DNA from: Lepraria neglecta
Lineage: Eukaryota > Ascomycota > Lecanoromycetes > Lecanorales > Stereocaulaceae
Direction of reading: 5' to 3'
NCBI GenBank assembly: GCA_033220425.1
Contig: CM065647.1
Location: forward strand, 4,340,001 to 4,404,000
Length of the DNA: 64,000 bases
The stretch's first letter is position 1, and the number at the start of each line of letters is the position of its first letter. The notes under the pieces are model-generated. The model ran no database searches and was not told the DNA's origin. It worked only from the letters and a program-made list of their open reading frames with translations. Positions 667 to 58,376 of the stretch are shown here, in pieces. Position numbers and translations under genes: made by a program.

Positions 667-1629
667 AGCTGAGGACTGTGAGAGGACATGCACTGAGCTT
701 TGCTAGTGCGATTCGTTGAGGTGCTTAGCTTGGGAAGATGACAGACAGAAAAACAAAAATTCCATAAATTTTGCTTTTCCACATGTAACGCGGCGCCATG
801 CGTTGGCATAAAAGCCATGCGCATAATCAAAAGCACTCACTGACAACTTCTGTTCAAGCAAGACGCTTTGCGCTGCCAGATGCTGCACAAATAAGATTGC
901 ATATTTGGAGGTCTCAGAGCTATTTAGTTCTTCAGCCAATGACGTAAGTTGAAGCGGCGGTAGTTCCGCTGAGTCGGTTTTTTTCGTCATGTCATGCACT
1001 ATATTTTAGTTGCATGTAAGTGGGTCTAGATCAGGATTTTCCAAGCTCAAACCCCTCTGAGACGATCAATTGACAGGACTATAAGTGAACACCAATGAGA
1101 CGTCTGCATGCCCTTTCTCAGGCCGCGCCGATGCACACTGGAAAAGTCATGAAGTAGACAATAGAGGAGCCCTGTTCCATTCTAGCTCTGCTAGAAAATG
1201 CTTTGGAACATTGATATCGGGCTCATTCTTATCAGTGAGCCCGTTGGTTGGTGGAGCCGGGAATGATCTTGATGGCTTCCGAGCCACTACTTGAGAGGTA
1301 ATCAAGAGCTGCGGAAGCTGGTGAAGAGCAAAGGGATGCAGTGATGCGGGAAGCGAAGGTCGAAGATCAAGAATTTTGATGAGAGGGCAACACACTGAAC
1401 GCACAAGCCGAGAAGGAGAGAAATGTTGCACAGCGAACGAAGGAAATCTATGGACTTTGTCGAAACTCCAAATTCAAATCCGAAATACTTGTACTTCCTT
1501 GATTAGCTACATTAGCTTGCCTACATCTAGCTTTCCGTCCCGCGCCACGCTTGTCAACGGTCCCGCTGTCATAACCTCATCACTAAATCGCAATAAATAT
1601 ATTCTCCTCCTTCTTACGCCGGTGTGGGA
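667..1629. other. Gene-free stretch with a block duplicated at 6137-6187
   Basis: No gene is supported here. At 1531-1580 a block beginning CTTTCCGTCCCG recurs at 6137-6187 with about two C/T differences over 45 bases. Both copies lie 50-90 bases downstream of the stop of an array gene. Confidence 0.6.
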
Positions 1630-2211
1630 TCATGGTATTGCGGTATTGCCATCGATGTGCTGATCAGGACCGGCATCGATGTTGGGGGCACCAACACTGT
1701 TCATCGGCGCTGGGGTGTCATCGCTTCCAGCTTCATGGCCTTGGCTCGGCGGGAGGTTGGCGTCGTTGGCATCGTCAGCCATGACCTCTGTTGGCGATTG
1801 AATCGACAGCGACGTTTGAGAGGGTAGGGGAGCGGACAGCGTGTGTGGGGCGACGGCGGTAGAGGCTCCGTCCTCTACTGAAACTGGTGAAGCAGCAACT
1901 ACGGCTTGCTCTTGGTTTTCAATTGGAGTATGGGATGGGACTCTGATAGGGCCCTCCGGGTCCTCGATTGACGCAGGCAGGGAGATAGGGTGACCGAGTT
2001 CAAGGTCTTGACAAGCGTCAGCATGGCATGATTGACGTGGACTCGAGGACTTACCTGCAGCCTCACCTTCTTGGCGGTGATGATATGCATGCCATATCAT
2101 CCAAGCTCTTCTGCCTTGGTGGACAGTGACAATACCGATAATTGTTGCGGTTGTGCCGTATACAGCAGTCATAAGGATCTCAACCGTGGTCGGTGATGTG
2201 GTGAAGGGCAT
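1630..2211 (-). CDS. Array protein 1: small one-helix membrane protein with variable tail
   Basis: Two exons (2211-2055 and 2006-1630) give 177 residues. The 48-nt intron (GTAAGT...CAAG) is a multiple of three, so it also reads through in frame. Residues about 11-31 form one hydrophobic helix containing Y-G-T-T-A-T-I-I-G, followed at once by Q-G-R-R-A-W-M-I-W-H and a His-rich stretch. The positive charge after the helix suggests the tail faces the cytosol (inference). Exon 2 opens with D-L-E-L-G-H and continues as a Pro/Ser/Thr/Glu-rich, apparently disordered tail. I chose the second ATG because copy 2 then aligns residue for residue. The family is not one I recognise and its function is unknown. 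It is the most downstream-sited of six copies on this strand. Confidence 0.65.
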   Translation of the reverse strand: MPFTTSPTTVEILMTAVYGTTATIIGIVTVHQGRRAWMIWHAYHHRQEGEAAGKSSSPRQSCHADACQDLELGHPISLPASIEDPEGPIRVPSHTPIENQEQAVVAASPVSVEDGASTAVAPHTLSAPLPSQTSLSIQSPTEVMADDANDANLPPSQGHEAGSDDTPAPMNSVGAPNIDAGPDQHIDGNTAIP

Positions 2212-3641
2212 TGTGGAGTGTGTGGAGGCCGGCAAAGATTCTCTTCTCGCAATAGACCAAATGTAGCAATGATTGTGGCCGAGAGCCTACAGAGATAATT
2301 GCCATTGTGCTGGGGAATCCACTTAATTTATGCCGCACTCTGAGATACAGCCTTAGCACACTGAAGAGGGATCAAGATCATGAGAGTAAGCCAAAATGGT
2401 ATGTTCCCCTGGAGATGTTTGGGAGTTGAAAGCCCGGTCTGGTGGGTGAAAGGTATATTTGTTCCATGCATCGCCCCTCTACAACCGGTGGTAAGATACT
2501 AACTCGAATAGGTGCTACGCTAGCCATGAGTAGTTTGAGAGCCTTTCTTGCTCTGCCTCTTTTATTGCGTCAACATCTTTTGCAGGGGTCAGAATCCTTC
2601 GCGGCAATTCGTTACCCCTAGTAAGAACCAATCAGTAAAGAAGTCTGATTATATGTGGGTCTCAGCCCCAAATGGCTTGGCAGCGGGAATGCTCCGTGAT
2701 ACCCCATCTGACGCGGATCCCCGTCTCGATTTGTCTAGCTCGCGGTGGACACGCATCTCGCCAATAGCTCATACAGCTCAGCAAGAATGGCCTACCCAAA
2801 TACGCCTAAAAGTACGAAGCGACCGTTTCGAACACTCCATGACATACCAATCCATCAGCGATATACGCCATATACTGTATACCTCAAGGATTGTTTCCAT
2901 AATTTCTATCATCGTCTTTATCCATATCCATTCAAGACTCTACTTATCCACAGAGAACCACTAATAATGACGTAGTCGGTCAATTGATGTGATGATTGGT
3001 TGAGTTGGCTGACATAATTTACGTTAGGCTGACGAGTCTCGCGGTCCCGTAGAAGCTCGCGGTCCCGTAGAGCTCCGTTGATTTTTGAAACCACGCGAAG
3101 GATTCCCACCTTCCATCCTCCCTTCTGTACCATTCCCTTACAATACAACCCTCAGAGCTCTAATGTAATCGGATCCATGGCTTGCATCCTTCTTACCTAT
3201 GCCTAACCGCCAAATGCGGCGTCCTCTCAACGCCGTAGCTACCGGAGCTGTCCATTCTAAATATTAGCTCGGACCAATCCTACTAGCTCCACCGGCCTCA
3301 CGCCAACAAAGGCCAACGTCTTGTTAATGCTGTGGGCTATGGACGAAACGAAGGGTCACAATGCCTGGAAAGCTGCGGGACAATGCAGCTAACGCCAAAC
3401 CTGCACTACACGCCTGGTTTTAGTAGCTTTACCTCCATGCCTACTAGGAGCCATACATCTAGCTCCGGGTAGATGAATTTTTTTGCAACTTCAGGGCACT
3501 GAGGGTTGGTATGGTAATCAAGGGTGACCATTTCAGAGCCTAGGTTCAATGCTTGTATATGTGCTTGTTTCACTAAGGTCCAGCGCAATCCTCAATCTGC
3601 CGGCCAATAATCTCTGTCAAGCCTCACGCCTTGTAACTCAC
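2212..3641. other. Gene-free stretch
   Basis: Open frames at 2548-2964 lack family resemblance and codon bias. A short tandem duplication of CTCGCGGTCCCGTAGA lies near 3036-3072. Nothing else was recognised. Confidence 0.5.
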
Positions 3642-4224
3642 TCATCCAGCGATCACGGCCATTCCTGTCGCCAGAACCATCAACATTACCCACCCATACC
3701 CTTGTACGGACCCTGCATTGCCAGTAAAAGGCACTGGGGAGCCCGCCATCACCGTCCCATTACCCATCGGTGCCCCAGTCCCACTAGCGCTCGGAGCCGC
3801 GGTCGAAGATGAACCATTCTTGGGGCCAAACCCTCCAACTTTGGCACAGAGACTTATAGCATAAGCATTCGTCACTGCCATTGCACAGTTAGAAATCCTA
3901 GACGCTTGTATTGAGAACGGGAGAGAGTACCGTTCTGCTCAGATGCCGTGCAATTGGCAAGTTCGCACGTGTCGAAGACGGTGGCGTATGTGGGGTCTTT
4001 GCAGATACACGTGAGATTTGTGTTCGAACAGGTGCTTTCGCTAAAAGCTTGCAGTGTGCATTGTTGCTGGATGAATTAGCATTCTGCTGATGTTGGTGGA
4101 GAGTACAAAGGAGTTGACTTACAGCACATTTCGGGAGTACCATTTGTGCCTTGGTAGTACTTTGTGCTTGAACGACTTCGAGCAGTGCCCCAGCAATAAG
4201 AATGACGAAGGTAGTGAAATACAT
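3642..4224 (-). CDS. CFEM-domain GPI-anchored cell-wall protein
   Basis: Three exons (4224-4123, 4066-3931, 3874-3642) join in frame into about 156 residues. The N-terminus is a signal peptide ending near V-V-Q-A-Q. The spliced domain then has exactly eight cysteines with CFEM spacing: P-K-C-A, Q-Q-C-T, S-T-C-S, L-T-C-I-C-K-D, D-T-C-E-L-A-N-C-T and S-L-C-A. A Ser/Gly/Thr-rich spacer follows, and the last ~20 residues are hydrophobic, as expected for a GPI-anchor signal. CFEM proteins are secreted or surface proteins of ascomycetes; some bind haem and take up iron, others are effectors or wall structural proteins. Which applies here cannot be told. Intron 2 has the branch point CTAAC just before its acceptor. 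The gene sits inside the array of small membrane proteins on the same strand. Confidence 0.92.
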
Positions 4225-4803
4225 CGTTCTGGTATTGATGGTAACTAAGGCTGGGAAGGTCTAAATATGAGTACTGTGAGCAAGATTTATACTGGGAGAA
4301 TTCAAACCGCTCAAAACTTACGACCCTGACTTCTCAATGTCATATGAGATCATAGTGGCTTTTTCATGCAAGCACAATGACATTGTTTCAGGGCCTGCCA
4401 AGAACTGATACGTGCGCTTCGGACTCAGGCACCATTTACCGTACCGATATCGTAGCTAGTTCCGAACGAACAGCTCCGAACGAACAGCTCCGAAAAAATT
4501 AAGATTCAAAACTTCATGTCACTCCACTATACCGTCGCTCACTGCTATGGATGGGCATCCTTGTTCATTTTGTTGAGCGCAGTTGTCGATGTGTGAGAGA
4601 GCCGTTGTAGATGCGTATGAGAGAGCCACAGTCTGTCTTGGTTTTGCGATACATGGAACGAAGCCTATGGAGTCCTACTGAAAAGAAAAGCGACTGTATA
4701 TCCTCCAACATCGATTCAGCTGCATGAAAAAACTAGACTCATGAATTCGTCCAACGTTATATCCACCGCTCCCCTTACGCATTGCCGACCTTGAAGAGCC
4801 AGG
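4225..4803. other. Gene-free stretch
   Basis: This is the upstream region of the CFEM gene and the downstream region of array copy 2. A 13-14 base tandem repeat (CCGAACGAACAGCT) lies near 4463-4495. No gene was seen. Confidence 0.5.
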
Positions 4804-5405
4804 CTATAGTGGTGTTTCTATCGATCTGTGGTTACAATATTGTTTGAGGTCAACTTCGCCTGTCGACGTTGTTGTTGTTGTTGGAATCTCAGACTCCTTC
4901 GACTGTGTCAAGGCTGATGATGCATACTTGTCACCAGTTGGTGGAAGCATGTGGCCCTTGCTTCCGTCTCCTTCAATCAGGTTTGCGGGAAGAACAGTCT
5001 TCGCAAACTTGGTCATCGATGACAATTGTACACTCTCGGGCTCGAAGGATTGTGGCAGACTTGACGACAGACCTCCGTGAGAAGGTTCATGGCTCCCGCC
5101 AGCGTGGTGCACCAACGCAGCATGAGCTTCGAGTGTTTCGGGAGCCTGGACCGTTTCAATTACTTCTCGAGGCACAGATTGGCCCAGCTCAATGTCTAAG
5201 TAAAATCAGCGACGCATTGATGGCTGAGCAGATGAGTCGATGCTGTACCTGAAGCTTGAGCTTCTTGGCTGTGGTGGTGTGCATACCACATCGTCCATGC
5301 TCTCCGGCCTTGATAGATGGTAATAACACCTATGATCGTTGCCGCGGTGCCATAGATGGCAGTCATAAGAGTCTGAGCCGCGGTTGACGTAAGGCTGAAG
5401 GCCAT
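4804..5405 (-). CDS. Array protein 2: small one-helix membrane protein with variable tail
   Basis: Exons 5405-5249 and 5195-4804 give 182 residues. The 53-nt intron lies at the same place and phase (1) as in copy 1. The helix carries Y-G-T-A-A-T-I-I-G and runs into Q-G-R-R-A-W-T-M-W-Y and a His-rich segment. Splicing creates D-I-E-L-G-Q. The tail is Ser/Thr/Glu/His-rich, has a short poly-Thr run near its end and looks disordered. An upstream in-frame ATG at 5465 would add 20 residues, but the start at 5405 matches copy 1. Core identity with copy 1 is high while the tails do not align, so the tail is evolving faster or under different constraint. Function is unknown. Confidence 0.68.
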
Positions 5406-6274
5406 CTTTGGGGTACAGGCGACGGGGAAAGAGGTGAGCGAGGCCGCTTGCACGCGGGAAACCAAAGTAAAGGTCGCGAGTAAGAGGTGAGAGGTGCCAT
5501 TTCGAAGGGAAGTTTGCTGTTTATATGTCCCAATTGTAAAGAGAATGATCGTTGTCAGATGGATTCTCGATAGTCGGCTTGACTTAATGCAGGTTCAACG
5601 GCCGTGCTTGGGGGAATATGGAGGATTTTGATAGCCGAGGTTTTCGCACGCGAGCACGTGTGGTGGCGTTTGGTAGGAGAAGTGCCTCGGTGCCTCGCAA
5701 CCTCGCAACCTCGCAATGAAAGTTACGTGGGCGGGCTAAACTCTAGCCATTGGAAACACATGTGAAGATTAGAATTAGAATTAGAAGTGGGGCTAGCTCA
5801 GATCTATGAAATACATGGCTTACGGTCCAAATAATTGCGTTCCTGCCGAACAATGGCAGTTTCAGGTCCGGATGCGTTGCTACTTAGTTGATGCTGAGGC
5901 ATGCGTCCAACGGTTCTCGCTCAAATGATCTTTTGGTTCTTGGTTCAATCTCTTATGCTGGTGCGTCAGTAAGCAGCTTCAAAGGGCGAATTTCTAGAAG
6001 ATTGGAGAGTACGTATAGGGCGAGGTTTGAAGATTTAAAACACATGACTGCATAGAGAATAAACGTAGTCTATACTATTTCAATACAATCCCAAGTCTCA
6101 TAGACACTTAAACCTCAGACTAAGGCGCCGGTGTATCTTTCCGTCCCGTGCCACGCTTGTCAACGGTCCCGCTGTCATAACTTCATCTCAACATCACAAG
6201 TTCACAACACACAATATCTACTCTACCTAACAGTGTAGTGAGGCTCAGACGGCTAGGGAGCAGCTGCCGGGCTG
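5406..6274. other. Gene-free stretch with a duplicated block at 6137-6187
   Basis: It holds short tandem repeats (CCTCGCAA near 5695-5715; GAATTA near 5770) and the second copy of the 45-base block also found at 1531-1580. No gene is supported. Confidence 0.5.
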
Positions 6275-6833
6275 CTAAGCGGGTGCCTGGTGGAGGCTGG
6301 ACTTGCCATCCTTCGGCTCCAGCGGAGGTGTAATATTGACCCTTCCAATTGCACGACTGTCGAGATCGGCGTCTGTATTTGTCTCGGTTGCATTGTTTTC
6401 AGGGTCCTGGCTAGACCTTGGGACAAGGCTAGCCTCGTTAGAAGTCAATGTCCCTAGCGGCGGCAATTGACTTGGCGGAGATTGTAGGAGTGTAGAGGAG
6501 ATATCTTGGACGACGCCAGCCCGGCTCTCGTTTGTAGCGTGAAGTGGTATGCCAATAGTTCGTGGGTGGGCTGAGGGACCTGGGGTAGGGAAGGACGACG
6601 CCAAGCCGAGCTCAAGACCTAGATGGAACTGTCAGCTAGGCCATCAACTCAAGGGACAGAGTATGACAGAGCATATTTAGACACTTACTAGAACGATGAG
6701 GGACTGTATTGTGACGGTGCTCGTGCCATATGGTCCACGCTCTGTGAGCTTGGTAAATAGTAACAAGGCCGATGATTGTTGCGGCAGTCCCATACACAAC
6801 GGTCGTGATAATGTCACCCGAGAGAGAATGCAT
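6275..6833 (-). CDS. Array protein 3: small one-helix membrane protein with variable tail
   Basis: Exons 6833-6689 and 6618-6275 give 162 residues; the 70-nt intron again splits a codon in phase 1. The helix contains V-Y-G-T-A-A-T-I-I-G-L-V-T-I-Y-Q, followed by A-H-R-A-W-T-I-W-H, with Ala replacing the usual Gly after Gln. Exon 2 opens S-L-E-L-G, so the usual Asp of the D-x-E-L-G box is Ser. The tail is Pro/Ser/Thr-rich and disordered in appearance. An in-frame ATG at 6887 would add 18 hydrophobic residues, but the later start gives family length. It is closest to copies 1 and 2. Function is unknown. Confidence 0.65.
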
Positions 6834-7302
6834 GTTATCGACAATTGGCAATAGGAAGCAGAAGCTTTCCTTTGGTAAGAGTAACACACAAGGCTCGATG
6901 AAGTGCTGGAGTCAACACATCCATCCTGAGGGGGACCAGCGCCTTTTAAGCTTCACTGTGACAGTGCGCCTGAAGCCTACAGGGAATGTCAGCATGATCA
7001 GTTCCACAGCAACAGTATTAGTGGCTGTGGCTTCGCGTTGGGTGCTATAGAGGATCATGGGAAAGTGCGTAGGTGAAGATCTGCGTATCGCGTATCATTA
7101 GTACCTAAATCAGATTGATTAATTATTACGCTAGGGGCCGCTAAACTTGTCGCCATACGTTGAGCCTATTATATCCTCTCGGGTTCGCGCCAGCTCCCTC
7201 GATAACACCCTAGGCTCTACCCACTCTCTAACGCCTTACGGATACAGGGCGCTCAGACATATGAGGCTTGCTTAGGCAGAACCCTGCCAAGACTCATGCT
7301 TA
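6834..7302. other. Gene-free stretch
   Basis: Upstream region of array copy 3. Nothing was recognised before the transposon end at 7303. Confidence 0.5.
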
Positions 7303-7879
7303 CTCGTACCCCAAACCGCCAGCCGCTAAGCCTAATTGGGAGCGCTAATAAATGATTTATCAATGCCACTATTCAATGCCTCCATTCCATTGCATTGCAT
7401 TGCATGGCCATGGCCTAATTAGAGCTCTACAAGAGGCCCGGAGGCAGTGGACTAGTAGTGGAAGAGGCCCTGCTATTCAGACAAGCCATATCTTATGTGG
7501 TCGGTGCAGCACATCCATCCGAATCCTCGAATGATTCGATCTCGTAGAGTAGTCCGACTGATTTGGAACCGAGTAGCGATCTGGCAAGTCGATTCGGCTT
7601 GTGGTGTTCCAATGGTTTCGTGATAATAGTTTATAGCCAACAGGATCCTTTGCTCTTTCGGGAGCTCCAGAGGGCCTGTCTGGAGGTCTTCTTGCTCTGG
7701 TAGATCAGATAGAAGGTCGGCAGGGTCGTCAGAGCCGTGGAGCGTTGATATAGCCATTACGGTGGCATGCAATGGGCGGAATGGAGGAGTTTGAGTATGA
7801 TTTTCGACATACCATTTGATAGCTTGCCTAATTAGGTTTAGCGGCTGGCGGCTTGGGGCGGTTGGGGAGGCAATACGAG
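7303..7879 (-). mobile_element. Internally deleted Fot1/pogo-type DNA transposon with terminal inverted repeats
   Basis: The ends are imperfect inverted repeats: CTCGTACCCC...CCGCCAGCCGCTAAG at the left, and its complement ending CAATACGAG at the right. TA dinucleotides at 7301-7302 and 7880-7881 flank them, as expected for a Tc1/mariner/pogo target duplication. The minus strand encodes the transposase N-terminus (about 7879-7473), with I-R-Q-A-I-K-W-Y-V and a helix-turn-helix Q-I-S-R-T-T-L-R-D-R, fused directly to the far C-terminus. All of the catalytic DDE region is missing, so the element cannot move by itself. A longer relative in the opposite orientation lies at 57277-58376, and the two share the same left and right internal sequence. 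Confidence 0.85.
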
Positions 7880-9273
7880 TAGTCAGCCTCAGCCCTATGA
7901 GCTTGCATATCCGGTTGAATGCGCGGCCGAATCCACACACCTGCAGTTTTCTAGGATCGGACTTCGCGTTCAAATGAGCGTGTACCAAAACGCCACTGGT
8001 CCAAAATTCTTCATCTACTACTACTCGCTGCTCGGCCTTTCGTTCTCAGCCTGATGCATAAAACCAGTAAGAACGCGAATCCTCCCGTCGCACGCCCAAG
8101 GGCCCCTCCCCCCCCCTTTGGCCACTTTGGTATCCGCCGCAGATGTAATTCCCAGTAACGACAATTGATCGGCTGAGAGACAATGGACGTATCTTCGGTC
8201 TGCCTGGCACCGGCCAGGCTGGGTCAGGTAATCATGTAGGTGAAGTCTATCGCGTTTGAGGTTCGCCGTTTTGATGGAGTTGCGCCTCTCACTATTTTAA
8301 AAATCTTGTCTGCTTGACCGTTTTTTCCCTCTACCATTCGGGTTGGGAGATGTCTGTGTGCATCCAGCTCTGTTGTGTCCACCCAGCTCTGTTGTGTCCA
8401 CAACTCTTTCTCTCTTTGCCTTTAATGTAAAGGTCAGTAGGTTCGTCTTGTGACCTAACGATCAAGGGCCTTAAAGGCGGTTGCGTTTAATTTTCTTTAC
8501 GTAGATGCGCGATTTTTGTATCACACTTGATTCAAGAATAAAGACAAGACGTCCATTCATCAAAGGTCAAGTTTCTTGGACACTGATGCACGTGCAATGA
8601 AGGTGCATCAAAGCAAAGCAGAGGTCGTGTTCAAAGACAGTGCAGCCTTGCAGCTTAAAAAGAATATATATGCAAAAAGAGAGCTAAACAGTACATTGTA
8701 CACTACGTACCTTATGGTGCATTTTCAAACTCGCGGCTTTCAATTCCATAGGCCTCGCGGCGCGAAATGCGCTAGCAAAAGAGCTAACTTGATCCGTCGA
8801 GTCCGTGAAATAATGACACGGAATCGACAGAAACGGCTTAGTGGATCTCTGCGAAATCTCTTTGGCAAAGTTTGCCTCGTCTCCCCATTTTCAAGCAACT
8901 ATGCATTGAAAGACAATAAGAAAAGTTCTTTAAGTTCATTAAAAAAAAACTGTTGGGGTGATGTAGATGATCACAGAGAAAAACTGATCAATCGTTTCAT
9001 TAATTATATGCTGATTTCATAAAGCGTCAATTCCATGCTAGGCCAAACGTCCAAAACCTACGCAGGTCATCACAGGCTGTCCCCATACCCCTTGGCATAG
9101 ACCACACTACCTTTTGCACAGCGCCGACAACATGGCGCACCGAAAACCGTCTTTCAAATGCTGCTACATAATTTCTCCGCAGGTAAATCCCCCCTAGGCT
9201 CTCGCACCTGGTGTTTCGGACGAACGAGCAACATCGGCAATAGGTGCAAGAGTGGCAGCTCGTGAAGTTTGAT
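7880..9273. other. Gene-free stretch
   Basis: A 148-codon open frame at 8576-9022 lies in A-rich sequence and resembles no family I know; I do not call it. A C-rich run is at 8107-8120. Nothing else was recognised. Confidence 0.45.
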
Positions 9274-9596
9274 TCAGAAGTCGATTGCCGTCTCACGCTC
9301 CGTTCGACTCATCGATTGGATTGCTGGTAGCTCAAACACTTCTAACGGATGGACATTATCTGAAGAAGAGTCGCCAATGCCAAGCTCCAGGGCTAGAAAC
9401 TCTGCATTAGTCGATCCAGTATTCGAGCAGGAGTATAAAAATCACTTGATCCACCAAAACCTCCGTCTGCGCTGTCATGACGCTCACGCCAGATTTTCCA
9501 CGCGCGATGACCCTGCCAGACAGTAATAGCACCGATCAATATAGCAGTGACACCGAAAACGATAGTACCGACGGTTTAGGTGGTACTTGACGCCAT
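9274..9596 (-). pseudogene. Array copy 4: short member with an early stop
   Basis: Exons 9596-9455 and 9392-9274 join in phase 1 like the other copies. The helix reads V-F-G-V-T-A-I-L-I-G-A-I-T-V-W-Q-G and runs into H-R-A-W-K-I-W-R. Exon 2 begins A-L-E-L-G-I. Codon 7 (9578-9576) is TAA where CAA would fit the neighbours, a C-to-T change in a CpA context typical of RIP. The donor GTGGAT is weak. The tail is only about 40 residues, far shorter than in the other copies, so the intact ancestor would have had about 86. It could survive only with an alternative start. It is most like copy 5. Confidence 0.7.
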
Positions 9597-10668
9597 TAGT
9601 AGAGTAGTCTTATGCGGAAGCTAGATTGGTTGTCGAGAATGCTTGTAGGTGCTGGTGATCATTGCGGTGCTTAAGAAATTTCGATTCAGGTGGTATTGTA
9701 AGGACATCCTGGGGACTTTGGAGTGCTGGAGCCTTGAAGCCGTATTTTTCATGTTTGTTGGGCGTGACTCGGGGGTCTCGATTGAGTCGATTTAGCTGAA
9801 AGAAACATGCAAGTCCCCTTGGGCCTCAGGTACGCTTACGGAGCGATAGCAATCTACGCGCATACACGTTGTATGGCTTGCCTGGGTCTGAGAGCCTTGA
9901 TTGGGTGCAAGGATAGCAAAGATGGAGACAAGTGGGCAATCGTTACCCTAATTGGTTGAAGAGGAAAAATCTTCGCGGGTAGAATCACCTTAATGTCGGC
10001 ATGATTCGATCGCATCCCGCTTCGTCTTTTCTCCACGCTCTGCTTCTTTCAGGCTAGAATTAGTGGGTAATCGTTGCCTTGAATGGCTGAAGAGAGAAAA
10101 TCTTGCGGGTAGACTTATCTCAGTGTCGGTACGACTTTTCCATCACGACTAATCATTTCCTCCCACTCTTCCACTCTCCCCTAACAACATTTCTTAGTGT
10201 CGTCATAGCCTTACGGCCTTCAAGTCGCGCATGAAACAGTCCTGCGTATCGAATCCATTGGATGATCACAAACAGAAATTTGGGACCGCGCACTATTATC
10301 AAGAGAGGGAAAGATATAGACTAGATCCCAAAGTCGCATTGTTAATACCACCTGAAAGTCTGCCCCGTTGATTGGACATTGTGGAAAGGAAGCAAAGAGA
10401 AAGTGATTGAAAATGGGGGTGATGCTTTGGAAGGGATGGTGGGCAGCTAAGCCGTTGAAGACGAAAAGCACTGGAGATGCGATTGAAAGAATCCATGGTG
10501 CATTGAAAACCATTGAATTTAGATAATTTACCTTAATTGCATACCAAATACATATCATTCTTGGGCATGAATGTCTCTGAATGTTACCTTATCGTGAAGG
10601 TACCATTGCCCTCTCCACCCATCGGGGCGATCTTGATATGTCCCCCTCTTCCTTCAGGGGCGAAAGCA
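9597..10668. repeat. Gene-free stretch with a diverged direct repeat (9931-10005 and 10062-10135)
   Basis: A unit of about 75 bases beginning AGTGGG(C/T)AATCGTT(A/G)CC recurs after 131 bases. The copies differ mostly by transitions. No gene is supported in the stretch; open frames at 10220-10558 lack codon bias. Confidence 0.6.
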
Positions 10669-11218
10669 TCACTTGGCCGAAACTGTAACAGCATCACTTC
10701 CTGGCTTTGTCGTTCCGGTCGAGGTTTCCAAGTCAGGGAAGCGTGCTGAAGAAGGCCTTTTGTCCGCGCCGGCATCAGTTGCAACCGCGGCAGCGTCTTG
10801 CTGTATTTCAAGGCTTGGGCTAGAGTTGGGATTTCTTTCAGCCGGCATACTGGTCGCAGCCTGGAGAGCCCGAAGTTCGAATCGCTCTGTTGGTAATGGT
10901 CGGTTGATGTTGACGTGAGGAGTGACAGGGTTGTCGATGTGGTTGTTCGTCTGGCCTTGCGCAGTTGCCGTTGTACTCAAGCCCCTTCCCAAATCTATGT
11001 GAAGGAATGTTCAGCATGGTACGAAGACATGAGCATTGAGAGATGGCGAGAAATGTATACACACATAATGGATAACCTGCTTCAATGTCTTGACCAAAAT
11101 GACGCTTACTCCATGTTTTCCAGAATTTGTAGCCTTGCCAAATAGTGATGATGCTTATGGTAGTGGCAGTGATACCGAAGACAAGGGTGATGAGGGACTG
11201 CGTGGAATTGGATGCCAT
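10669..11218 (-). CDS. Array protein 5: small one-helix membrane protein with variable tail
   Basis: Exons 11218-11077 and 10994-10669 give 155 residues, with an 80-nt intron in phase 1 at the family position. The helix carries V-F-G-I-T-A-T-T-I-S-I-I-T-I-W-Q-G and continues into Y-K-F-W-K-T-W-S, so the R-A-W triplet is K-F-W here. A second D-I-E-A stretch lies just before the intron, and exon 2 opens D-L-G-R-G. The tail is Asn/Pro/Ala-rich. An in-frame ATG six codons upstream is possible. The gene is most similar to copy 4. Function is unknown. Confidence 0.65.
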
Positions 11219-13092
11219 AGACGAGACTGGAGCCATGACCGAAGGTACAGCTGTGGGTGAGAAAAAGGTGCGAGATTGTGCTTGTAGGAGGTTGTAATAC
11301 CTGGTGGTAGTTGAGTTGAGACTTGAGCACTGGGTGCGGTCATCTTGGAGGAAAAGCTGCGTGGCAGCATGTTGTACTTGTCTTTGTTCACAATTCTGGA
11401 AAGAGCCTCTTTATGTTCGCAAGGCAGTTCGCGAATGGTAGGAAAGGCAAATTCAGGCAAACTTGCAGCACCACTATAGAATCAAATTATCCCGCTTTCT
11501 GAATTTGATAGGACGATAACGAGCATTCTCACGTTAATCATACCCTTTCGCGGCATTAGCCATGATTATGCAGTTCAGAGCCGCCGTTTCGAACCAGTCA
11601 GGATACGTCGTTCAAGCCACTCCGAAGTCGCGAGGCTCTTCCTTGTCCATCATACTCGAGATCTAGGGCTGAAGCGGATTGACGTACGTGGTTTTGCTCC
11701 CCGGAAGCAGAACCGGTTGGCGGGATTCCTTGGATCTAGGCCAATGCTTAAGCAAGATGATGAAAGCTGACACACGCAGGGGCTGGTCGAGACCTGAGAC
11801 CGAAAAGGTGCTAGTCGTGGCAATTGGATCCGTGGGAATATTGTGATTTGCAACTCTGTGGTCTGAGCGGCAGTTTTGGGTGACAGAATATTACTGGATG
11901 CCGCATTGTATTGGTGTTAAACCTGTAAGACTGCACAGGTCCTAGAGCAGCTCATGCGCTTTTCGGCGGATTAGAGAGCCGTAATAAATGGAGATTCGGT
12001 GTTATTCCAGCGGAGGACAAGTACTTTTCAGGGAAGGCTGCTGCTCATGTGCCGCTAACACCTGCTCCAACAGCTTTCTGAATAATATTATTTAAGCTCT
12101 GGCTCGGCCGGAAAACGACCATTTTAATTCGGTACCAGTACAAATAGCCTGATCTTAACTTCCATACGTGTGTGAACAGCAACTCTTGTAGCGCAAATTT
12201 TCACTGATTCAATAACCATCCACCCTCTGTCATGAGAAATGACAGTATCCACAGGCTCTGAAGACAGGCTTATAGTTACTCGATAGCTTCAACCTCAACG
12301 AACAATTGTCTGGAAGAACTCTAAGCTGACTGAATTGGCGTGTTTCCAAGGAGATCTTGCGCCTGTATCTCCATAAATATGTCGCCCGTGGGAGCTAGTA
12401 ATAGATGTTACCTCCACGAGTACGCTGAGAGCAGTCGCTACTCTTGCATGGCCGAAGACCGTGTGGAATGCCTTGGGGCATGTGGAGCTCAAAGCGTTTG
12501 GTCTTTGGGGGAATCGAGGCTGGTATTGAACATGCTATGGTGGCTGTCTGGGATAAGCTTGATGATGGTGATCGTAATCGATGGGTGCAGAAGTAGTCTA
12601 TTTAAAAGGTTAAGATAGGAATGGCATCAATATTTGGGCAGAAAATTTTCAGCATTGCTTGGCTGTCTTCCCTAAGGTACGCTGAGGTTAACGATTCCTG
12701 GCGATGATGCCAATGGTGCAAACGTAGTGGGAGATGTAAAGGTAGAAGAGATACCGGGGTTATTAACATACAGCGATAAGACGCAGAGGGCAGAATGTTA
12801 GCTTCTATTAGAATTGCTTAGTCCAGAAGTTATGTATTGAGGTACATCGAACACCAAACTTTAGCCAATCACGTCTTCTCACGTCCCGAAATAAGACAGA
12901 GAGTCATGAAACAACGCAATGACAAGCTTTGGAAGATATCCAAGGCTGTAAATGAGATCATAAATTCCAGTCCAAGTACTGATGTATGCTGCTTCCATTC
13001 GTAACAACGTTATCCATAGGAACGAAATACTGACGGCAGATTCGGGCAGTGTTGATCCAAACACCAGGCCGTACTGTTCCCACGCCAGTGTT
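11219..13092. other. Gene-free stretch
   Basis: About 1.9 kb between array copies 5 and 6. Several short open frames exist on both strands but none has family resemblance, splice continuity or codon bias. Confidence 0.5.
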
Positions 13093-13718
13093 TTATAGTA
13101 CAGGCAGAGTCTTGACAGGATCGACACGGCCCGTGTGATGAGTTTGATTGTTGCAGGATCCGATGGAGGGAGTGCCAACTAGAACAAAGTCAAGGCTCTT
13201 TGAGCTCCTTGACAACGCAGGAGTTGAGGTCGCGCTGAGCCCGAGGTCTGAGCACGAAGCAGTGATGTGGCGTCGTTGCGGGCTTGGGTACGTTCCAAAA
13301 GGATTCATTGGAGCCACAGCAGGATGTTCATTTGCGTTGAGATACAAAGGTGATATCGATCCCCAGGACTCGGTATCCTCAGTGGTGTGGGTGCTTCCAG
13401 GGTTCGAGGAAGCCGGGCATGATCTCTCCCCAGTCAGATTAGCAAGCGATAGGGCACCTGTAGGTGGCCCTCGCCTTTCGAGAGACGTATGCGTACGTTG
13501 CAGGCCAAGCTCGATGTCTGAAAAGTGTGAGTATTGTCCATCAGCCTAAGCTATAAAGGACGAGGACCTGTGGTGATGCTATGCTGATAGTGATATTCAC
13601 GCCACAACTTCCACGCCCGATGACCTTGATACAAAGCGATGATACTGAAGCCGCTGGCTGCGATACCGAAAGCAATGTTAGCGATTGTCTGGGCTTGATT
13701 CGATGATGTAGAAGACAT
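13093..13718 (-). CDS. Array protein 6: small one-helix membrane protein with variable tail
   Basis: Exons 13718-13568 and 13517-13093 give 191 residues; the 50-nt intron is in phase 1 at the family position. The helix contains I-A-F-G-I-A-A-S-G-F-S-I-I-A-L-Y-Q-G, followed by H-R-A-W-K-L-W-R-E-Y-H-Y. Splicing restores D-I-E-L-G-L. The tail of about 140 residues is Ser/Thr/Pro-rich. An ATG five codons upstream (13733) is also in frame. It is the most divergent core of the six and the most upstream-sited in the direction of transcription. The conserved intron and D-I-E-L-G box make homology secure. Function is unknown. Confidence 0.68.
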
Positions 13719-15732: not shown

Positions 15733-17203
15733 ATGGCAGCTGTCCAAGTCTCTCTACCATTGCCAGTCCTCCCTCAGGGCTGGTCGGAAGAGAGGGATTT
15801 CAAGCCCATCGGTCAGCTCTCATCTGCGACCCAACGAAACATCGAGCCTGTGGGACCTCACTTTCTGGCTCACGCAAGAAGAGTCTGTTACTTCCTTCCA
15901 AATGATGGCCTGTAATGCTTTTGTATGCTGACATATACAACAGAAGCGTCACAAGCGCACTTTTTCTGAAGACGAGCGTATTCAAGCTCAAGAAAATGTC
16001 AAGAAAATCGACGATGATGACGCTGGAGAGATTAGCGAGCCAGAAGATCCCTTAATGCTCCAACGTGACGCCAAGGACTGGAAGGTACCTAACTCACCCC
16101 CTCATATGGTCTCTACTCCCAAAGCTGTTCGATGCTGACGGCTTTGGCTACAGGGACAAGATCACTACGCTGTCCTCGGCCTCTCTCAATACCGCCACGA
16201 AGCCACCGAATCCCAAATCAAGCGTGCCCACCGCAAGAAAGTGCTTCGCCATCACCCCGACAAGAAAGCAGCCGCAGGCTCCTCGGAAGATGATTCCTTT
16301 TTCAAATGCATCCAAAAAGCCACCGAAATCCTCCTCGACCCTGTCAAACGTCGCCAATTCGATTCCGTCGACGATGCCGCAGATGTCGAACCTCCATCCA
16401 AGAAGCAAGCACAGAAAGGCGGCTTCTTCAAGCTCTGGAACCCTGTCTTCATAGCTGAGGGTCGGTTCAGTAAGAATCAGCCTGTACCGCGACTGGGCGA
16501 TGACAAGGCTACAAAAGAGGAGGTCGAGGAGTTCTACAACTTCTGGTACAACTTCGACAGCTGGCGGTCTTTCGAATACCAAGACGAAGATGTGCCGGAT
16601 GATAATGAGAACCGTGATCAGAAACGACATGTGGAGAGAAAGAACAACAATGCCAGGAAAAAGAAGAAGACAGAAGACACGGCGAGGCTGAGGGCTTTGG
16701 TGGACGAATGTCTGCAAGGCGACGAGCGGATCAAGAAGTTCAAGAAGGAAGAGCGCGCTGGGAAAGACAAGAAGCGGCTGGACAGGGAAGCAGCGGAGAA
16801 GAAAGAGAAGGAGGAAAAAATCAAGGCTGCCGAGGAGCAGGAACGTCTGCGTAAGGAAGCCGAGGAGGCGTCGAAGGCTGAGAGGGCTGAAGGCAAGAAG
16901 GCTAAGGAAGCAGCGAAGAATGCTGTGAAGAAGAATAAGAGAGTGTTGAAGGGCAGTGTGAAGGATGGGAACTACCTGCTTCCTGCTGGACAAGACGCTG
17001 GAGCGAAAAGGATTGATGAAGTGTTGAATGATGTCGAGGCAGTGATGGCGAAGATCGAGCCGGAGGAGATGGCTTTGTTGGCGAGCAAGCTGAATGGGCT
17101 GAAGGTGGCAGAGGAGGTAGGGAAGGTTTGGGGCGAGGAGGTGAAGAGGCTGGTTGATGTTGGGAAGGTTAAGGAGGGGGATATGAGGGTGCTGGGGAGG
17201 TGA
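15733..17203 (+). CDS. ZUO1: Zuotin, ribosome-associated J-protein
   Basis: Exons 15733-15882, 15944-16084 and 16154-17203 join in phase 0 into 446 residues (yeast Zuo1 has 433). The J domain starts near residue 98 with D-H-Y-A-V-L-G-L and carries the diagnostic H-P-D in L-R-H-H-P-D-K-K. The zuotin homology region follows, with F-F-K-L-W-N-P-V-F and F-Y-N-F-W-Y-N-F-D-S-W-R-S-F. Next comes a long charged Lys/Glu helix (about residues 235-370), which contacts ribosomal RNA in the family, then a short helical C-terminus. Zuo1 pairs with the Hsp70 Ssz1 in the ribosome-associated complex and stimulates Ssb on nascent chains at the tunnel exit. The 1-kb open frame antisense to exon 3 is a shadow of its Glu/Lys codons. 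Confidence 0.97.
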
Positions 17204-57276: not shown

Positions 57277-58376
57277 CTCGTATTGCCCCCCCAACCGCGC
57301 CCCCCCCCAAACCGCCAGCCGCTAAGCCTAATTAGGCAAGCTATCAAATGGTATGTCGAAAATCATACTCAAACTCCTCCATTCCACCCATTGCATGCCA
57401 CCGTAATGGCTATATCAACGCTCCACGGCTCTGACGACCCTGCCGACCTTCTATCTGATCTACTAGAGCAAGAAGACCTCTAGATAGGCCCTCTGGAGCT
57501 CCCGAAAGAGCAAAGGATCCTGTTAGCTATAAACTATTTTCACGAAACTATTAGAACACTACAAGCCGAATCGACTTGCCAGATCGCTACTCGGTTCCGA
57601 ATTAGTCGGACTACTCTACGAGATCGAATTAAAGGAGCCAGATCAAGGAATAAAGTCAGCCAGGAGTAATAATTACTATCACCAGCAGAAGAAGCCGCAA
57701 TCGCCAGATGGATAATACAACTCGGAAAATGGGGGTGGCCACTAAGGGTTATGAAATTGCGGTCTATAGCCCAGTAGATACTTCGAAAGAGAGGTTATAT
57801 GAAAGACCTAGGTAATCACTAGGTTGAGAAGTTCTTCAATCGCTATCCTGATCTAAAAACGAAATTCCTTTCGCCTATAGATAAAGACAGGAATAATATC
57901 GCCAGTAACCCTGAAACGTATCAGATATATTAGCGAGGCCGGAGCAGCCAGTCCTTATGCGAGAGCTATCGCCTACTCCAGTAGCTATATAGGGAGGTCG
58001 AATTATCAGGAAGCCACGGCGACTCCTTAAATAGGCGCTATACCTAATGAAGAAGGAGTGCAGGTCGAGGAAAGCATTGCAATAGCGTTTTCAGGCCTGA
58101 TTTCGAGTTCGAATTGGAATATGATATCGCAAGTAGAGTTATATATTCGAGGATTCGGATAGATATGCTGCACCAACTACATGAGATATGGCTTGTCTGA
58201 ATAGCAGGGCCTCTTCCACTACTAGTCCACTGCCTCCGGGCCTCTTGTAGAGCTCCAATTGGGCCATATAGCCATGCAATACAATGGAATGGAGGCATTG
58301 AATAGTGGCATTGATAAATCATTTATTAGCGCTCCCAATTAGGCTTAGCGGCTGGCGGTTTGGGGGGCAATACGAG
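57277..58376 (+). mobile_element. Fot1/pogo-type DNA transposon, internally deleted
   Basis: The element starts CTCGTATTGCC and ends GGCAATACGAG, inside TA duplications at 57275-57276 and 58377-58378. The terminal repeats extend through CCGCCAGCCGCTAAGCCTAATT. The plus strand carries transposase remains: I-R-Q-A-I-K-W-Y-V, R-I-S-R-T-T-L-R-D-R, then a CENP-B-type helix-turn-helix (L-S-P-A-E-E-A-A-I-A-R-W) and F-F-N-R-Y-P-D-L. Stops interrupt it, for example TAG after E-Q-E-D-L near 57481. The DDE catalytic core is missing. It lies 177 bases past the stop of the F-box gene. The shorter relative at 7303-7879 is in opposite orientation and lacks even more of the middle. Confidence 0.85.

Follow-up and report, generated by a model that had tools for sequence, protein, structure and literature searches.

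A local array in Lepraria neglecta of genes for small single-pass membrane proteins that match no named family in the libraries searched, with five intact-looking copies and one broken copy

Introduction

What is encoded by six similar reading frames that follow each other on one strand of a 12-kb region of the Lepraria neglecta genome, and what could their products do? The frames, here called g1 to g6, occupy positions 1630–13718 of the minus strand of the window, that is, the whole stretch of 64,000 nucleotides (nt) analyzed here. The original prediction, made from the sequence alone, described six paralogs on one strand in 12 kb. Six homologous minus-strand frames are indeed present and their homology is beyond chance, but one of them, g4, carries an in-frame stop codon. 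The array thus consists of five intact-looking copies and one broken copy, and represents the local expansion of a fungal gene family for small membrane proteins with a single pass. Below we describe the evidence for common descent and for selection on the conserved core, the structure of the variable tails and introns, and possible functions of the encoded proteins.

Results

Homology and copy number

The genome (42 Mb, 11 contigs) was searched for further copies with queries from four of the six genes, namely the exon-1 peptides of g6, g2 and g5 and the helix piece of g4. Each of the four queries matched all six copies of the array, the weakest match having an E-value of 2.2e-4 on the scale of the whole genome, and among the best candidates scored none of them matched anything outside the array at E<=10. 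As only the best-ranked candidates were scored, the genomic copy count is a lower bound. The DNA pattern of the conserved Q-(G/A)-x-(R/K)-(A/F)-W-x-x-W block occurred at twelve places in the genome, six being the array copies; the other six were translated, inspected by eye and rejected because no hydrophobic helix preceded the motif. Common descent of all six genes is shown by these matches. A tree of 35 core columns separated g1–g3 from g4–g6, bootstrap support for the split being 97 (200 replicates). The two sub-clades follow the linear order of the genes, which therefore fits ordinary local expansion by stepwise tandem duplication.

Two exons were recognized in each copy, and full two-exon models were obtained for five, with proteins of 177 (g1), 182 (g2), 162 (g3), 161 (g5) and 191 (g6) amino acids. 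The models are as follows.

2055..2211, minus strand: g1 exon 1, with the N-terminus, helix, QGRRAWMIW block and donor GTAAGT (model; homology to other copies)
1630..2006, minus strand: g1 exon 2, with the DLELG box and a disordered acidic tail of 120 residues (model, codon usage)
5249..5405, minus strand: g2 exon 1, with the N-terminus, helix, QGRRAWTMW block and donor GTACAG (model)
4804..5195, minus strand: g2 exon 2, with the DIELG box and tail (130 residues including the box, predicted disordered)
6689..6833, minus strand: g3 exon 1, with the N-terminus, helix, QAHRAWTIW block and donor GTAAGT (model)
6275..6618, minus strand: g3 exon 2, with the SLELG box and tail (model, codon usage)
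9461..9596, minus strand: g4 exon 1 (broken), with the ATG, in-frame TAA, helix, QGHRAWKIW block and weak late donor GTTTTG
9487, minus strand: g4 alternative donor GTGAGC
9274..9392, minus strand: g4 exon 2, with the ALELG box and a short tail (39 residues including the box) containing the FELPAIQ stretch
11077..11236, minus strand: g5 exon 1, with the N-terminus, helix, QGYKFWKTW block and weak late donor GTTATC (model)
11109, minus strand: g5 alternative donor GTAAGC
10669..10994, minus strand: g5 exon 2, with the DLGRG box and a tail containing FELRALQ (model, codon usage)
13568..13718, minus strand: g6 exon 1, with the N-terminus, helix, QGHRAWKLW block and weak late donor GTCCTC (model)
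13600, minus strand: g6 alternative donor GTGAAT
13093..13517, minus strand: g6 exon 2, with the DIELG box and tail (141 residues including the box)

The conserved core is under purifying selection

In all six copies an ungapped hydrophobic stretch of 20 residues runs up to the Q of the block, in agreement with the single helix and the following block that had been predicted. The mean hydropathy of the helix is moderate (1.7–2.2), and all copies have A-xxx-(G/S), a helix-packing pattern, at the equivalent helix position. The N-terminal flank is short, uncharged or acidic. In the intact copies the numbers of lysines and arginines before and after the helix, the latter counted over 16 residues from the Q onward, are 0/3 (g1), 0/2 (g2), 0/2 (g3), 0/4 (g5) and 0/3 (g6), so the flank behind the helix is the more positive one in all five, as in type III signal-anchors. 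The AlphaFold2 model of g2, built with the four intact paralogs (five sequences only), contains one helix at residues 7–54. Block means of the predicted local distance difference test (pLDDT) are 90–95 over residues 11–40 and 39–53 from residue 51 on, with a mean of 55 for the whole model.

We then compared the proportions of non-synonymous (pN) and synonymous (pS) differences, a check suggested along with the original prediction. In the exon-1 core pN was 0.20–0.44 and pS was 0.58–0.95, with pN lower than pS in all 15 pairs and silent sites near saturation in many of them. The core is therefore under purifying selection, and the duplications are old.

Tails are coding and mostly unalignable

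A box related to D-(I/L)-E-L-G does open exon 2, as had been described. However, the strict form is found in three of the six copies (g1, g2 and g6), while the box is degenerate in g3 (SLELG), g4 (ALELG) and g5 (DLGRG). Behind the acceptor the frames of the five intact copies remain open for 108–141 codons; with stop codons at their local frequency (0.0385), this would happen in all five by chance with a probability of about 3e-11. Codon usage, trained on 11 long open reading frames (ORFs) of the window and its flanks, ranked the modeled frame of exon 2 top in all six copies, with a margin of just 0.004 in g6. The five tails are open well beyond chance, and they are coding.

In the intact copies P, S, T, A, G, Q, N, E, D and K make up 66–75% of tail residues, serine and threonine together accounting for 17–26%. 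When the box was removed, 12 of 15 tail pairs aligned no better than their 200 shuffles. The tails of g4 and g5 scored 34 against a shuffle maximum of 33 (0/200 shuffles as good) and by eye have the stretch FEL(P/R)A(I/L)Q in common; the pairs g5–g6 (p 0.03) and g2–g3 (p 0.045) are marginal, these values being without correction for the 15 tests. As far as alignment goes, the prediction of long, disordered and unalignable tails in all copies except one holds for most pairs, but the tails of g4 and g5 are not unrelated and two further pairs are borderline. Capture of the tails from other genes was also considered: the tails of g6 and g2, the two of six that were searched, had no match elsewhere in the genome (E<=1).

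Intron position and splice donors

One phase-1 intron at the same place in all copies had been proposed. Its acceptor, located ahead of the box, is homologous in all six, but of the modeled donors only those of g1 and g3 (GTAAGT) have good support. Intron lengths in the intact copies are 48 (g1), 53 (g2), 70 (g3), 82 (g5) and 50 nt (g6). Donors were assessed by a rough census of 244 candidate introns in 145 kb outside the array, in which GTGAGT (9) and GTAAGT (5) were favored; control values are means of four altered branch patterns, with 172 introns each versus 244, and are unscaled. The g2 donor GTACAG was counted 0 times against a control mean of 1.2. The late donors GTTTTG (g4), GTTATC (g5) and GTCCTC (g6) had counts of 2, 0 and 0 against control values of 2.5, 0.2 and 1.2, respectively. 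An early donor, also in phase 1, can be read in each of these three genes one base past the second tryptophan codon: GTGAGC in g4, GTAAGC in g5 and GTGAAT in g6, with thin counts of 2, 1 and 1 against 1.0, 0.2 and 0. In the late-donor models the spacing from the tryptophan to the box is 11–12 residues in g1–g3, g5 and g6 and 9 in g4; because this spacing is similar across the models, the comparison favors the late donor as the probable ancestral one.

The 48-nt intron of g1 (2007–2054) is in frame and stop-free, and its retention would give a readable insert of 16 residues.

The broken copy

The ATG-led frame of g4 that aligns with the other copies ends at codon 7 with TAA (9578–9576), just ahead of the helix, and the stop also shows up in the genome search. 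Behind the stop the frame is open but lacks an ATG ahead of the helix. The sequence from the stop to the block's Q codon is devoid of AG, which leaves no acceptor in this interval for splicing around the stop. The remainder of g4 still matches other family members in the genome search. Because of the in-frame TAA just before the helix, g4 is probably a pseudogene.

Database comparisons

A scan of the five full proteins against Pfam-A gave a single weak match, to TPR_21 (E 0.22, 11.7 bits versus a cut-off of 25.5). The six cores, that of g4 being the piece behind its stop, hit three Pfam families with one member each, the best E-value of 0.028 being not credible, and one NCBIfam family with one member (E 0.043; cores only). 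A profile of the six cores yielded seven matches at E<=10 among PDB sequences, the best of which (E 0.58, 17 positions of a lysozyme) is attributable to chance. A pattern search matched 35 stretches of IMG/VR viral contigs and 11 in GTDB bacterial and archaeal genomes, with no relatives among either set, both being poor places for a fungal family. Literature searches retrieved nothing on point for the array proteins; a paper on peroxisome genes came up but does not concern them. Among the 20 listed of 729 text matches to core peptides in the literature, none had a title on a fungal protein, and the matches were taken as embedded equation code.

The lack of a strong match between the core and any Pfam family, and of any credible match in Pfam-A, NCBIfam and PDB sequences, with fungal proteomes outside the scope of the search, agrees with the earlier statement that no named family with this layout was known to its author. 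This supports the absence of a named family from the libraries searched, which is not equal to being new to science. Similar N-termini probably occur in fungal proteomes.

Surroundings of the array

Two related elements lie downstream of stop codons of array genes.

1528..1593, minus strand: 66-nt element past the stop codon of g1, with 89% identity to the one behind g3
6134..6199, minus strand: 66-nt element downstream of the g3 stop

Their 32-nt core was found at only these two places in the genome (<=3 mismatches). The elements are 89% identical although pS of the g1–g3 core is 0.62; gene conversion or a constrained 3' element is possible.

Between g3 and g4, imperfect inverted terminal repeats of 53 nt enclose about 550 nt (7309–7858). 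The terminal-repeat pattern had 66 matches in the genome (<=2 mismatches), 15 of them representing one variant with two mismatches, and many matches form facing pairs about 0.5–2.4 kb apart, including another pair in the window at 57312–58358. These repeats represent a family of DNA transposons or miniature inverted-repeat transposable elements. A 69-nt repeat, 80% identical, is located between g4 and g5 (9931–9999 and 10062–10129).

A CFEM-domain gene lies on the minus strand between g1 and g2 (3642–4260; PF05730, E 1.4e-7 for the ORF 3872–4075) and by eye has an apparent hydrophobic end of the glycosylphosphatidylinositol type. The right flank contains a gene for a zuotin-type J-domain protein (16139–17203; ZUO1-like, RAC head, DnaJ). 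To the left, beyond the window, there is a frame (L018, 6298–7884) for a putative HacA-like bZIP protein. No RNA family at the gathering score and no tRNA were found in the 64,000-nt window.

Discussion

Possible function

Our preferred reading, to which we assign a confidence of 0.35, is that the proteins might be anchors with the N-terminus outside and the C-terminus inside, exported from the endoplasmic reticulum (ER) by coat protein complex II (COPII) and holding a disordered tail in the cytosol. The helix would insert as an uncleaved signal-anchor. Under the positive-inside rule the N-terminus would be outside and the tail cytosolic, because the N-terminal flank has no lysine or arginine and two to four follow the helix; the basic, aromatic flank Q-G-x-R-A-W-x-x-W would then lie at the cytosolic face. 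The A-xxx-(G/S) face may pack helices together, so that the helix may self-associate. The membrane-proximal D-(I/L)-E could act as a di-acidic DxE signal loading the protein into COPII vesicles, and the protein would leave the ER for a later membrane. There the tail would be displayed in the cytosol and possibly bind partners, its length and general composition outweighing its sequence. With the late donors, four of the five intact copies have D-(I/L)-E at most 20 residues from the WxxW block, a level reached by none of 5000 shuffles; for the looser [DE]x[DE] the observed level was reached by 22 of 5000.

Several observations weigh against ER export. Neither g3 nor g4 has the DxE, and that of g5 sits four residues before the box position, within exon 1. 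The early donors in g5 and g6 would remove it, leaving it in g1 and g2 only (2/5 intact copies). The shuffles ignore kinship, and a single inherited event may therefore account for three of the four occurrences. Being moderately hydrophobic, the helix is equally suited to the mitochondrial outer membrane. The g2 model has a low mean pLDDT, obtained from five sequences, and the putative topology and location follow from general rules. Finally, by codon usage the true frame of exon 1 is never the best of six in any copy, so that support for this exon comes from conservation.

A bolder version of the same scheme would have interchangeable cytosolic payloads on one delivery module composed of the self-associating helix, the aromatic-basic belt and the ER-exit box. 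Only the module would be selected and each tail would recruit a different partner, while the second same-phase donor in g4–g6 would delete the linker preceding the box and switch the exit signal on or off. We consider this highly speculative.

Alternative explanations

The main rival of ER export is that these are signal-anchored proteins of the mitochondrial outer membrane, of the class of Tom20, Tom70 and OM45, with a cytosolic tail and with the box and tail serving docking or regulation. The mean hydropathy of just 1.7–2.2, the presence of threonine and glycine in the helix and the two to four basic residues right behind it are in line with such a fate. An aromatic belt like WxxW is not known from anchors of this membrane, which argues against it. 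Several yeast outer-membrane proteins, including one of 45 kD, have moderately hydrophobic, interchangeable transmembrane domains, and human TOM20 and yeast FIS1 likewise seem to depend on moderate hydrophobicity, a property described as required for such anchors (PMC2573885). However, hydropathy alone cannot separate the two fates, and the D-(I/L)-E box would be without a role in the mitochondrial one, which we consider unlikely.

We also regard as unlikely that the array is a decaying local expansion, that is, a set of old duplicates on their way to being lost, most of which would have little function today. The stop in g4, the weak modeled donors in g4–g6, the degenerate box in g3–g5 and the repeat element inserted between g3 and g4 could all be explained in this way. 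Yet five frames are open over 161–191 codons although silent sites are close to saturation, and every pair has a pN lower than its pS, which requires selection over most of the copies' history. The original prediction suggested a recognition or signaling family, in which selection would diversify the tails and preserve the anchor. The conserved core, the mostly unalignable and coding tails and the tandem arrangement are compatible with it, but drift of disordered sequence at near-saturated divergence (pS 0.58–0.95) gives the same pattern, and scans of the five intact copies and of ten window ORFs revealed no kinase, receptor, NLR or HET domain. Because near-saturated silent sites and unalignable tails fit drift equally well, the suggestion is not supported and appears improbable. 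Even less credible is the reversed topology, with serine- and threonine-rich, O-mannosylated tails in the cell wall or lumen, as in single-pass wall sensors. The serine and threonine content of the tails would be its basis, but in mucin-like sensor stalks this content is far higher; besides, the positive-inside rule opposes the reversed orientation in all five intact copies, and the N-terminus by eye is unlike a cleavable signal peptide.

Significance and comparison with known systems

Small single-pass proteins with disordered tails that are encoded in tandem are a familiar sight in fungi. If the present family is widespread among them, it deserves a family entry, the conserved part being about 35 residues and easily missed, and may provide a compact membrane anchor that carries its own sorting signal. 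If it is not, we are dealing with the local duplication of an uncharacterised membrane protein, which is nothing unusual. Arrays of this kind are ordinary.

DxE cargo of the COPII coat is the closest parallel for ER export. DxE signals are ligands of the B site of Sec24, a yeast Sec24 mutant matching this site loses packaging of DxE cargo, and the G protein of vesicular stomatitis virus (VSV G) uses a signal of this type (PMC5464768). Like VSV G-type cargo, the array proteins are single-pass with a proposed C-in tail, and in g1, g2 and g6 D-I-E or D-L-E is located 12–13 residues behind WxxW. In contrast, no sequence homology with such cargo was shown, the box is incomplete in g3–g5, and the export role is putative here. 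The Tom20, Tom70 and OM45 class has in common with the array an N-terminal, moderately hydrophobic helix, a basic C-terminal flank and a cytosolic C-terminus, the latter predicted in our case. It differs in that the array proteins have no Pfam match to such families, carry a disordered tail instead of a folded domain, and possess the extra conserved DIELG-like box. The array also resembles fungal single-pass families that have no Pfam name, which likewise comprise small proteins with one helix and a disordered tail, encoded by tandem duplicates.

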